Below are positions 24,456 through 29,581 of a stretch of 64,000 nucleotides of DNA, in pieces. The position numbers and the translations under genes are program-made. The number at the start of each line of letters is the position of its first letter. Within the stretch, counting starts at the first letter, position 1. The notes below the pieces were generated by a model. It saw nothing but the letters and a program-made list of their open reading frames with translations. It ran no database searches and had not been told where the DNA came from. The DNA is taken from NCBI GenBank assembly GCA_019973575.1, contig BPUI01000001.1, positions 1,314,342 to 1,378,341 of the forward strand, read 5' to 3'. The stretch is from Gemmatimonadetes bacterium T265. GTDB lineage: Bacteria; Gemmatimonadota; Gemmatimonadetes; Gemmatimonadales; Gemmatimonadaceae.

Positions 24456-25775
24456 TCAAGCAGATGACGCCACCGCCGCCGCGCGTGTCCGAAGCAGCGT
24501 CTGCTCGCGGGCGTTGCGGGTGAGCGCCGCCGCGCGCATGAACTCCGCCCCCGCCTCCTCCAACCGGCCGAGCCGTTCGAGCAGGTCGCCGCGCACGCTC
24601 GGCAGCAGGTGATAGCCCCGGAGCGGCCCGCCCGCGGCCGCCTCCGCCGCGAGCGCGTCGACCAGCACGAGCCCCGCGGCCGGCCCGTACGCCGTCGCGA
24701 CCGCGACCGCGCGGTTGAGCGCCACCACCGGCGACGGGACCGACTCTGCCAGTGCGTCGTAGAGCGCCGCGATGCGCTCCCAGTCGGTCTCGGCCGCCGT
24801 GCGCGCCCGCGCGTGGCACGCGGCGATGGCGGCCTGCAGCGCGTACGCGCCGAGCAGGTCGCCCGCTGCCCGCGCGAGCGCCTCCGCCCGCGCGAGCGCC
24901 GCGAGTCCCCGGCCGATGAGCAGGTGGTCCCACCGTCCGCGGTTCTGGTCCAGCAGGAGCACCGGCTCCCCCGCCGGCCCGACCCGCGCCCGGAGCCGCG
25001 ACGCCTGCAGCTCCATGAGTGCCACGAGGCCGTGCGCCTCCGCGTCGTCAGGCGCGAGCCCTGCCACCACGCGCCCGAGCCGCAGCGCTTCCTCGCAGAG
25101 TTGGGGGCGCGCCCAGCTGTCGCCGGCCGTCGCGGTGTAGCCCTCGTTGAACACGAGGTAGAGCACCTCGAGCACCGAGGCGAGCCGCTCCCTGAGCTCG
25201 GCCCCGCGCGGCACCTCGAACCGGACCCCGGCCGCAACGAGCGTGCGCTTGGCGCGCACGATCCGCTGCGCGACGGTCGGCTCCGCCGTGAGAGAGGCGC
25301 GTGCGATCTCGTCGGTCGTGAGCCCGCCCACGAGCCGGAGCGTGAGCGCCACCCGCGACTCGCGCGCGAGCACCGGGTGGCAGGTCATCAGCATGAGCCC
25401 GAGCCGCTCGTCGCCGCCCGGGTCGTCGAGCGCGGCGTCGAGCGCGGCCGCCGCCTCATCGGCTCGCGCGTCCTGTTCGGTGCCGAGTTGCGCGTGCGTG
25501 CGGTCGAGCATGGGGCGTCGGCGCAGGTGGTCGATTGCCCGGCGCCTGGCGGCGGCCATGAGCCACGCGCCCGCGTTATCCGGGACGCCGGCTTCGGGCC
25601 ACCGCTCCAGGGCGAGCACCAGGGCGTCCTGCGCCAGGTCCTCGGCGAGCGCGACGTCGCCCGTGAGCCGGGCGAGCCTGGCGATGAGCCGCGCCGCCTC
25701 CACGCGCCACACCGCCTCGACGGCGCGGTGCGTGGCGCCCGCCAGCACGTCGGACGTCGGCGCGGGTGTCGCCAC
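24456..25775 (-). CDS. ECF42-group RNA polymerase sigma factor with C-terminal TPR-like domain
   Basis: 439 residues, ATG start. The N-terminal sigma2 region has LIARLARLTGDVALAEDLAQ followed by ALERWPEAGVPDNAGAWLMA. The sigma4 region (RLVGGLTTDEIARASLTAEP, then TVAQRIVRAKRTLV) follows near residue 160. Beyond it lies the ~220-residue C-terminal extension of this group, with the hallmark LYLVFNEGYTAT near residue 210 and GRWDHLLIGRGLAAL near 285. The conserved genetic partner of the ECF42 group is a DGPF/YCII protein, which is found 6 bases upstream. No anti-sigma factor is present; the extension is thought to regulate activity. It lies between rpmH and dnaA, an unusual place. Confidence 0.92.
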   Translation of the reverse strand: MATPAPTSDVLAGATHRAVEAVWRVEAARLIARLARLTGDVALAEDLAQDALVLALERWPEAGVPDNAGAWLMAAARRRAIDHLRRRPMLDRTHAQLGTEQDARADEAAAALDAALDDPGGDERLGLMLMTCHPVLARESRVALTLRLVGGLTTDEIARASLTAEPTVAQRIVRAKRTLVAAGVRFEVPRGAELRERLASVLEVLYLVFNEGYTATAGDSWARPQLCEEALRLGRVVAGLAPDDAEAHGLVALMELQASRLRARVGPAGEPVLLLDQNRGRWDHLLIGRGLAALARAEALARAAGDLLGAYALQAAIAACHARARTAAETDWERIAALYDALAESVPSPVVALNRAVAVATAYGPAAGLVLVDALAAEAAAGGPLRGYHLLPSVRGDLLERLGRLEEAGAEFMRAAALTRNAREQTLLRTRAAAVASSA

Positions 25776-26396: not shown

Positions 26397-26564
26397 GAGC
26401 GCAACTCCGGCGTTCGGGTCGGAGCCGCGACCCGCGCCTCGTTGGCCCGGGAATCACGCGGCTCTCTCGACACGTCGAACGAGCGGCTCGAAAATCGACA
26501 CGTCCGAGCGGCGGCGTGGAAAGCGGCGTATCACGTGAGTGCGAGCAAGCCCGATGTGGAAGAA

Positions 26565-26594
26565 TTGACTTTATCCACATCGTGCCCGTACCTT
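26565..26594 (+). promoter_or_regulatory. Putative dnaA promoter with overlapping DnaA box
   Basis: TTGACT at 26565-26570 matches the -35 consensus at 5 of 6 positions; a weak -10 (TACCTT at 26589-26594) follows after 18 bases. The perfect DnaA box TTATCCACA at 26571-26579 abuts the -35. The arrangement would let DnaA repress its own gene, as known in E. coli. The dnaA start codon is 66 bases downstream. Confidence 0.5.
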
Positions 26595-26659
26595 CGCGCC
26601 CCGCTGGCTGAACAGCGGTGGGGGTCCACCGTTCCCTGGCGACCATACAGCCCGCCACG

Positions 26660-28192
26660 ATGTCGCTTTCGGCCGCCGAAGTCTGGGACCGCCTCCTCGC
26701 CCGAGCCCGCCAGGAACTCCCGGAACAAACCTTTCGCACCTGGCTCGAACCCACGGCCCCGCTCGCCGTCGACGGCCGTCGGCTGCTGGTCGGCACGCCG
26801 GACCGGTTTTCGGCCGAGTGGAATGAGTCGAAGCACGCGCCCCTGCTGGCGAGCTACGCGCCCATCGCGCTCGGCCACCCGCTCGACGTCGCCTTTCAGG
26901 TCGACGACGCGCTGAAGAACCGGCCGCAGATCGATTTCTTCGTCGAGGCGCCCGTCGCCGTCCCGATGGCGGCCCCGGCGCCCGCCGCCGTCGCGTCCGC
27001 GCCCGCCTTCGCCCCGGAGGCGGCCGGCCGCGCGGCGCCGCCACGCACCGCGACCTACGCGCCGGTGAGCGCGCCCGACACGCCCTCTGCGCCACTCAAC
27101 CTCCGCTACACCTTCGCCAACTTCGTCGTCGGCAAGTCGAACGACGTCGCCGCGGCCGCCGCGATGGGCGCCGCCGAAGCCCCGGGCCGCGTCTACAACC
27201 CGCTCTTCATCTACGGCGACACCGGGCTCGGCAAGACGCACCTCATGCAGGCCGTCGCGCACGCCATGCTCGAGCGCAACCCGGCCACGCGCATCACCTA
27301 CATCGGCACCGAGCAGTTCACGAACGAGTTCATCGCCGCCCTGCAGAGCCGGACGACGGCCGACTTCCGGCGCCGCTACCGCGCCACCGATCTACTCCTC
27401 GTCGACGACATCCAGTTCCTGAAGGGCAAGGAGACGACGCAGGAAGAGTTCTTCCACACCTTCAACGCGATCTACGAGGCCGGCCGCCAGATCTGCCTCA
27501 CGAGCGACCGGCCGCCGAAGGAGATCCCCGGCCTCGAGGCCCGCCTCGTGAGTCGCTTCGAGTGGGGCATGGTCGCGCACGTGGACCTCCCCGCCTACGA
27601 AGACCGCCTCGCGATCCTGCAGCAGAAGGCCGGGCAGGACCACCTGCAGACCACGATCCCCGGCCGCGTCCTCGAGTTCATCGCTCAGCACGTGAAGTCG
27701 AGCGTGCGCGAGCTCGAAGGCGCGATCGTCAAGCTGCTCGCCTTCGCCTCGCTCAAGCGCCGCGACGTCACGCTCGACCTCGCCCACGAGGCGCTGCGCG
27801 ACAAGCTGCGCTCCGAGGAGGCCGTCCAGCAGCTCGCCGAATCGGCGCGCACCGGCGTCCCCGTGCGCGCCGCGCACGGCATCGTCCCCGGCTCCCCGCT
27901 CACGCCCTTCGTCATCCAGCAGGCCGTGGCCGCCGAGTGGCGCGTGACGCCCGACGGGCTGCAGAGCAAGGTGCGGACGAAGACGCTCACCGTGCCGCGC
28001 CAGGTCGGGATGTATCTCTGCCGCGAGCTCCTCGCGCTCCAGCTCGTCGAGATCGGCAACGCGTTCGGCGGCCGCGACCACTCGACCGTGATCCATTCGC
28101 TCGAGCGCGCCGCCGCGATGATGAGCGAGGACGACGCGTTCCGCGCCCGTGTGGAAAAGGTGCGCGGAATGTTGGAAAGTCTGCGCAGTTAG
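26660..28192 (+). CDS. dnaA: Chromosomal replication initiator DnaA
   Basis: 510 residues from ATG 26660, selected because SLSAAEVWDRLLARARQELP then matches the usual DnaA N-terminus. Domain I covers about residues 1-90; a long Ala/Pro-rich linker (domain II, ~90-145) follows; domain III begins at LRYTFANFVVGKSND. Walker A is GDTGLGKTH near residues 186-194, Walker B LLLVDDIQFL near 245, sensor 1 ICLTSDRPP near 280. Domain IV carries the helix-turn-helix signature FGGRDHSTVIHSLERA near residue 469. Its stop codon TAG lies inside the heptamer GTTAGGC. The gene is followed by the likely origin. Confidence 0.98.
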   Translation: MSLSAAEVWDRLLARARQELPEQTFRTWLEPTAPLAVDGRRLLVGTPDRFSAEWNESKHAPLLASYAPIALGHPLDVAFQVDDALKNRPQIDFFVEAPVAVPMAAPAPAAVASAPAFAPEAAGRAAPPRTATYAPVSAPDTPSAPLNLRYTFANFVVGKSNDVAAAAAMGAAEAPGRVYNPLFIYGDTGLGKTHLMQAVAHAMLERNPATRITYIGTEQFTNEFIAALQSRTTADFRRRYRATDLLLVDDIQFLKGKETTQEEFFHTFNAIYEAGRQICLTSDRPPKEIPGLEARLVSRFEWGMVAHVDLPAYEDRLAILQQKAGQDHLQTTIPGRVLEFIAQHVKSSVRELEGAIVKLLAFASLKRRDVTLDLAHEALRDKLRSEEAVQQLAESARTGVPVRAAHGIVPGSPLTPFVIQQAVAAEWRVTPDGLQSKVRTKTLTVPRQVGMYLCRELLALQLVEIGNAFGGRDHSTVIHSLERAAAMMSEDDAFRARVEKVRGMLESLRS

Positions 28193-28459
28193 GCGACTTC
28201 TCCACAGCGCGCGGAGGCGGCCGTCCACAGCCGCTCCACACCTTGTCCACGCCGGTCGCCGCACCGCCCGCGAGTTCTCCCCAACCCGCGCGGGAATGCC
28301 CGGCGCTCCACAGTCGGGGGCGGACGATTCCCACTACCGAACCCCCTGCACGGCCGTAACTTCCGCGCGTTCTCGACGCCCTCCACACCCCCTGCTGTTA
28401 CCTCTGTTCTTTTGATCTAAAAAGACAGACTACTAACAGCAGCCCTCCGGTCCGTACGC
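28193..28459. other. oriC: Candidate chromosomal replication origin (oriC)
   Basis: The dnaA-dnaN gap. DnaA-box-like hexamers TCCACA/TCCACG start at 28201, 28224, 28235, 28246, 28307 and 28382; the first is inside TTCTCCACA (28198-28206), one mismatch from the TTATCCACA consensus. Three of them are exactly 11 bp apart, i.e. on one face of the helix. A reversed box (TTTTCCACA) lies in the dnaA end at 28150-28158. An AT-rich segment (about 28400-28436) is flanked by the perfect inverted repeat CTGCTGTTA (28392-28400)/TAACAGCAG (28434-28442) and could be the unwinding element. The order boxes then AT-rich tract then dnaN fits known bacterial origins. Confidence 0.75.
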
Positions 28460-29581
28460 GTGCGCTTCACGATCTCGCGGGAAAAGCTCCAGGAAGGACT
28501 CGGCGCCGTCGCGGCGAGCATCCCCGCCAAGACGACCCTCCCGGTCCTCGCCAACCTCCTCGTCGAGACCACCGAGCGCGGCATCCGCCTCGCCGGCACC
28601 GACCTCGACATCGCGGTCAGCACCGAAGTCGCCGCCGACGTCGAGACCCCGGGCGCGATCACGATTCCGGCCAAGAAGCTCCAGGAGATCGCTCGCGAAC
28701 TCCCGCCCTCGCCCGTGAAGGTCGCCGCCGCCGGCGAGCAGCGCATCACGCTGGAGTGCGGCCGCGCCCGCTTCAAGCTCCTCGGCCTCCCGCGCGACGA
28801 GTTCCCTGCCTTCCCGGCCGTCAAGTTCGACGAGAGCTGGAAGATCAAGAGCGGCGACCTTCAGAAGCTGATCCAGCACACCGCCTTCGCCGTCTCGACC
28901 GAGGAGAGCCGCCCGATCCTCAACGGCGTCCTCTGGGAGCTGCGCCCCGAGCGCATGCGCATGGTCGCCACCAACGGCCACCGCCTCGCGCGCATGGAGC
29001 TCCCGGCCATCGACGGCGCGGGCGCCGGCACGCAGACGGGCGACCTGATCATCCCGCCCAAGGCGCTCGACCAGATCCGCAAGCTCTTCCCCCCCGACGT
29101 CGAGCTCGAGATCGCCCGCGGCGACAACCACCTCGGCTTCCGCTCGCCCACGACCGCGGTCTACACGCGCCTCATCGAGGGCCCGTACCCGAACTACGAG
29201 CAGGTCATCCCGAAGGACAACGACAAGGTCGCCTTCGCCGACAAGGGCGCCCTCATGTCGGCCCTCCGCCGCATGTCGGTCATCGCCTCCGACCAGACGC
29301 ACCGCATCCGGCTCTCCTTCAACGCGGGCATGCTCAAGTTCGCCGTCCAGACGCCCGACCTCGGCGAGGCCGCCGACGAACTCCCGATCCGCTACGACGG
29401 CGACCCGCTCGACATCGGCTTCAACGCGAGCTACCTGCTCGAGATCCTGCGCTACGTGCCGACGGACGAGGTGAAGCTCACCTTCCGCGCGCCGGAACGC
29501 GCCGCGACGCTGGAGCCGGAAGGGTGGAGCGATCCGTCGAAGTACCTGTGCCTGGTGATGCCGCTGCGGCTGATGGACTGA
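28460..29581 (+). CDS. dnaN: DNA polymerase III beta sliding clamp
   Basis: 373 residues from GTG 28460. The start MRFTISREKLQEGLGAVAAS is the canonical N-terminal strand-helix of the clamp. Features in order: TLPVLANLLVETTERGIRLA near residue 26, LLGLPRDEFPAFPAV near 110, PILNGVLWELRPERMRMVAT near 150, then the hydrophobic-pocket C-terminal segment ending YLCLVMPLRLMD. It forms the ring that tethers DNA polymerase III to DNA. It directly follows the origin region; recF and gyrB, which often follow dnaN, are not next to it here. Confidence 0.98.
   Translation: MRFTISREKLQEGLGAVAASIPAKTTLPVLANLLVETTERGIRLAGTDLDIAVSTEVAADVETPGAITIPAKKLQEIARELPPSPVKVAAAGEQRITLECGRARFKLLGLPRDEFPAFPAVKFDESWKIKSGDLQKLIQHTAFAVSTEESRPILNGVLWELRPERMRMVATNGHRLARMELPAIDGAGAGTQTGDLIIPPKALDQIRKLFPPDVELEIARGDNHLGFRSPTTAVYTRLIEGPYPNYEQVIPKDNDKVAFADKGALMSALRRMSVIASDQTHRIRLSFNAGMLKFAVQTPDLGEAADELPIRYDGDPLDIGFNASYLLEILRYVPTDEVKLTFRAPERAATLEPEGWSDPSKYLCLVMPLRLMD

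Follow-up and report, generated by a model that had tools for sequence, protein, structure and literature searches.

The 267-bp region between dnaA, which ends at 28192, and dnaN, which starts at 28460, is very probably the chromosomal oriC of this Gemmatimonadaceae bacterium and appears to contain a basal unwinding system (BUS). The initial annotation had proposed an oriC candidate at this place, and that proposal is supported by densely clustered DnaA boxes on the same strand, a module of DnaA boxes, spacer and DnaA-trios found in about 100 relatives, a minimum in GC content and a switch in octamer polarity near dnaA, along with a DnaA protein that retains the relevant residues and the presence of rnpA and yidC upstream. 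Judged by these features the origin is mostly ordinary, with one variant feature, i.e., mirrored trio-like repeats on the other strand.

Gene Context of the dnaA-dnaN Region

The window, i.e., the whole stretch of 64,000 nucleotides that was analysed, corresponds to positions 1314342–1378341 of contig 1 in a 5.63 Mb genome assembled in 6 contigs from a soil-dwelling member of the phylum Gemmatimonadota. Its closest named relative is Roseisolibacter sp. H3M3-2 (89% DnaN identity), of the family Gemmatimonadaceae. The dnaA gene (26660–28192, + strand) encodes the Pfam domains Bac_DnaA, Bac_DnaA_C and DnaA_N, and its start is likely the ATG at 26660 rather than the GTG at 26618 with which the longest open reading frame begins. 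It is followed by dnaN (28460–29581, + strand; assigned by Pfam), encoding the DNA polymerase III beta clamp. Upstream of dnaA, on the opposite strand, are rnpA and yidC, a frequent neighbourhood of bacterial origins. A sigma factor gene of the DUF6596 (ECF) kind (24456–25775, – strand) lies between rnpA and dnaA, within this usual neighbourhood. The 16S rRNA genes are on another contig and give no help in orienting contig 1. Two side observations were made among the genomes compared. Two genomes of one genus (G074 and G075) each encode, as a second copy, a divergent homologue of dnaN that shares 44% identity with the DnaN of the window, and two sequences with a Gemmatimonadaceae-like dnaA-dnaN region are deposited under the titles Candidatus Kuenenia and Nitrospiraceae (L019 and L026), titles that are probably wrong.

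Aligned to Bacillus subtilis DnaA (8btg), the DnaA protein encoded in the window conserves the single-strand DNA-binding Ile190, the arginine finger Arg264 and the box-binding motif GGRDHSTVIH. Both Ile190 and Arg264 are required by the BUS (PMC8287927).

DnaA Boxes

The dnaA-dnaN region contains six TCCACR words, all on the + strand: TCCACA at 28201, 28224, 28235, 28307 and 28382, and TCCACG at 28246. All six had been noted in the initial annotation, and their number is far above chance, as 0.15 would be expected in 267 bp at the rate of the window and dinucleotide shuffles of the region contained 0.28 on average and reached six in 0 of 5000 cases. The region is the densest TCCACR cluster within the 64 kb and adjoins dnaA, as is demanded of an oriC of the dnaA-dnaN type. 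A similar enrichment is seen in the relatives, with 2.9 + strand boxes per intergenic region against 0.25 expected. The first word belongs to the near-perfect DnaA box TTCTCCACA (28198–28206, + strand), which was described earlier and deviates at one position from the consensus TTATCCACA. Three weak boxes (TCCACA, TCCACA and TCCACG; 28224–28251) and a further weak box core (TCCACA; 28307–28312) follow on the same strand. The first three weak boxes are indeed 11 bp apart, as had been pointed out, but this spacing is not kept in relatives, where it is 20/21/17, 10/20/63 and others, and a special meaning of the 11-bp phasing was therefore rejected.

Two further boxes were absent from the initial annotation: TTTTCCACA on the – strand within the 3' end of dnaA (28150–28158), and a perfect copy of TTATCCACA upstream of dnaA (26571–26579, + strand), which is one of only three in the 5.6 Mb genome. 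Of 71 relatives, 67 have a box in the 300 bp upstream of dnaA that deviates from the consensus at no more than one position. The upstream box may serve autoregulation of dnaA or may be a second origin lobe. Box-like words at 26515 (–), 26555 (–) and 26571 (+) suggest a small second cluster in the segment 26515–26579. High-affinity boxes upstream of dnaA combined with a downstream cluster are also characteristic of the bipartite origins of B. subtilis (oriC1/oriC) and Helicobacter pylori; here, unlike in those origins, each genome has no more than about one good box upstream of dnaA, with a putative role in initiation.

The Predicted BUS

The BUS consists of a pair of DnaA boxes, a short GC-rich spacer and DnaA-trios, which read 3'-GAT-5' on the bottom strand and CTA on the top strand (PMC8287927). 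A corresponding arrangement is found at the dnaN-proximal end of the box cluster. The upstream weak box TTCTCGACG (28370–28378, + strand), for which a recognisable box is found at the same place in many relatives, abuts the trio-proximal box CCCTCCACA (28379–28387, + strand), and the spacer CCCC, 4 nt in length, separates the latter from the predicted bottom-strand trios at 28392–28400 (top strand CTG CTG TTA, bottom strand 3'-GAC GAC AAT-5'). Only these three trios are uninterrupted in the window; they resume in frame after one interrupted triplet with CTG TTC TTT (28404–28412). The criterion of at least three in-frame NAN trios no more than 16 bp from a box thus finds CTG CTG TTA, 4 nt past TCCACA. 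The published rule also asks for an adjacent box with at most two mismatches to TTATCCACA, or for a species-specific box (PMC8287927). Both boxes of the window have three mismatches to the Escherichia coli consensus, one more than the strict form of the rule tolerates for one box; their core TCCACA is the consensus of the lineage, and species-specific boxes are permitted.

The assignment of boxes and trios is supported by their conservation. The intergenic region was compared in 98 unique relatives, later 102, and the order of box, spacer and trios, seen across the 98 sequences, is kept in the Gemmatimonadaceae and two sister families. When 26 non-redundant relatives were aligned on the last box, TCCACA was nearly invariant and followed by a 4-nt spacer, five CT[AG] triplets with a strict period of 3, and then T-rich DNA, while a weaker box was located 8–9 bp ahead of the last box. 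A trio score of at least 8 after a box was obtained for 40% of the 102 regions and for 2% of shuffled sequences (p = 0.01 for the window), and TCCACA with three such triplets within 9 nt is found twice in the 5.6 Mb genome, one of these being the site described here. Anchoring of the BUS by pattern missed 29 of the 102 regions; several of these have trios at another spacing and a few are without recognisable trios.

The resemblance to the BUS of B. subtilis oriC (incC; DnaA boxes 6/7 and trios) extends to the position between dnaA and dnaN, the tandem boxes, the short GC-rich spacer, the bottom-strand trios and the AT-rich segment beyond them. The window differs from it in that the boxes are weaker (three mismatches each), the trios are rich in CTG, a mirrored trio-like arm is found on the other strand, and no DnaD/DnaB-type protein was found in the genome (PF07261 absent) while DciA is present. 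From its sequence, the core layout is that of the published BUS and not new, the window being a further example (PMC8287927). The earlier statement that no origin of such layout has been experimentally described for this lineage is thus too strong as regards the core, although no experimentally described Gemmatimonadota origin was found in the open literature searched.

The AT-rich Segment and the Inverted Repeat

Within the 64 kb, GC content is at its lowest (38%) in the 50-bp windows that start at 28392–28393, exactly where the trios begin, and an AT-rich unwinding element, as expected of an oriC of the dnaA-dnaN type, is thus present. The predicted unwinding segment spans 28392–28442, and is bounded by the perfect 9-bp inverted repeat reported in the initial annotation (CTGCTGTTA, 28392–28400; TAACAGCAG, 28434–28442), within which an inner repeat (28403–28413/28419–28429) is nested. 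What had gone unrecognised is that the left arm of this repeat is the DnaA-trio array. On its own the 9-bp repeat is marginal (p = 0.05 against shuffles). The hairpin that it closes has a z-score of –7.8 in the window and a negative mean z-score in relatives.

Upstream of the box pair a promoter-like element directed toward dnaN is conserved, consisting of AA (28340–28341) and TAACTT (28357–28362) on the + strand (conserved columns –47, –26 and –25). AA or AC followed after 14–17 bp by TANNTT was found in 18 of 39 non-redundant relatives with 1.3 expected, a count that is descriptive as the pattern was written after inspection of the column conservation. Judged by its sequence, the pair at 28340–28362 may be the dnaN promoter. 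It is conceivable that the inverted repeat, instead of serving replication, folds into a 5' leader hairpin of a dnaN mRNA transcribed from this promoter-like element, and that the boxes regulate dnaN. Besides the conserved promoter-like pair and the strength of the hairpin, this would agree with the arms in one family of relatives, f1, which match their own partner better than those of other genomes (p = 0.0004). On the other hand the left arm coincides with a period-3 trio array at the position of the BUS, and in a second family, f2, the arms are mirrored without such co-variation (p = 0.87), so that the pairing of the arms is not claimed to be under selection in the order as a whole. Likewise, stem mismatches in the relatives are more often A-C (37) than G-T (10), which is not the excess of G-U expected of an RNA stem with the sense of dnaN, though base composition can cause such a bias. 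The stem is not followed by a run of T (U in the transcript), and an intrinsic terminator was rejected for this reason. A leader hairpin is therefore considered an unlikely explanation of the repeat.

Chromosome Polarity

The initial annotation had suggested a GC-skew minimum as a check of the origin. Over the 1.9 Mb of contig 1 sampled, the skew beside dnaA is flat (+0.0006 to the left and +0.0017 to the right, with errors of about 0.005) and hence uninformative as to the position of the origin in this genome. Similarly, no split point stood out in a leave-out test of 5- and 6-mer strand bias, and a search of the genome for canonical parS sites, with up to 2 mismatches allowed, found none. 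A polarity switch was found with the G-rich octamer GGGNAGGG, the FtsK-orienting octamer of E. coli, whose use as an FtsK signal is assumed for this lineage. Its two orientations occur 89:146 to the left of dnaA and 121:88 to the right (p = 3e-5). In an earlier, sparser sample, a single-step changepoint fell at 0.86 Mb, which is some 0.49 Mb away from dnaA. With more data a smooth trend no longer placed the switch there, and a logistic trend over 1.9 Mb crossed zero at dnaA +0.11 Mb (95% block bootstrap –0.24 to +0.37), a model that was picked after the single-step result had been seen. When the data are binned, the surroundings of dnaA are neutral and both arms polarised, a profile that a step model fits poorly. 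Weaker polarisation is seen for the reversed octamer GGGANGGG as well, and the signal may thus stem from the composition of the strands in general and not from FtsK sites. The genome of one relative, G022, is a single contig of 4,636,964 bp in which dnaN is located at 1753. Stretches sampled from its first half have a mean GC skew of +0.009 and those from its second half one of –0.016, which is what an origin near dnaA would predict.

These data bear on the view that the region is only a DnaA-regulated promoter or a DnaA titration site and that the true origin is located elsewhere on the chromosome. A GC skew that does not switch at dnaA, and the first octamer changepoint, would be in line with this view. 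It is nevertheless highly improbable, as the BUS grammar, the minimum in GC content and the position between dnaA and dnaN are kept across the order, the octamer zero crossing is at dnaA within error, and the skew halves of G022 have the signs expected for an origin near dnaA.

Mirrored Trio-like Sequences

The right arm of the inverted repeat reads TAA CAG CAG on the + strand (28434–28442), i.e., it is a trio-like array that mirrors the left arm. Mirrored NAN runs exceeded shuffled sequences both in the 29 non-redundant sequences of f1 (score 4.66 vs. 3.61, p = 2e-5) and in the 13 of f2, an independent set examined later (5.23 vs. 3.94, p = 0.013); the scoring scheme was devised for the present analysis, and as the sequences are related these p-values are rough. 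Runs in the same direction and two control triplets did not exceed shuffled sequences in either family. As the arms are mirrored in both families while co-variation is seen in f1 only, the order as a whole gives more support to trios on both strands than to a hairpin as such.

In the window the right arm is flanked by no DnaA box, and an inverted one, as a second BUS would have, was not found within 16 bp of the right-arm trios. To the right of the mirrored arm, GTGGA is found in only 3 of 40 f1 relatives and TCCAC in direct orientation in 17 of 40. In three sequences (L060, L078 and L085) the inverted DnaA box TGTGGA is present to the right of the mirrored arm, and the core there resembles two facing BUS modules. 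Inverted elements are also known from the oriC of Thermotoga maritima, which likewise has a trio-bearing unwinding element (DUE modules with a trio) by a box cluster, but there they are DnaA boxes and not trios (PMC10316083). B. subtilis has a DnaD recognition element (DRE), a strand-specific element on the strand other than that of the trios, which is proposed to act for the second helicase (PMC10201434). The DRE is located opposite the trios and is read by DnaD, whereas in the window a second trio-like array is found past the AT-rich centre and DnaD is absent.

Proposed Initiation from the Predicted Origin

What was observed concerns sequence, conservation, gene context and octamer polarity; DnaA binding, filament growth, unwinding and helicase loading are inferred by analogy with B. 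subtilis and other species. DnaA would collect on the same-strand boxes at 28198–28312 and on the tandem pair at 28370–28387. From the last box it would cross the 4-nt spacer onto the bottom-strand trios at 28392–28400 and onward, stretch this strand and melt the AT-rich segment to about 28442, after which the helicase would load. The trio-like runs of the right arm might, judging from their sequence, serve the second helicase. It is tempting to speculate that the core of Gemmatimonadales origins is two-sided. Trio arrays on both strands would face one another with the AT-rich centre between them, which would let DnaA coat both single strands and guide one helicase each way, with no need of DnaD and with DciA as the loader; this model is considered unlikely at present.

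An origin is hereby located and dissected in a phylum for which no experimental origin was found in the literature searched, and the BUS is extended to this phylum at the level of individual bases. The mirrored trios are the sole part of the origin that could be new. How the second helicase is loaded for bidirectional replication is not yet settled (PMC10201434); the mirrored trios, if functional, would suggest a route in bacteria that have DciA and are without DnaD.
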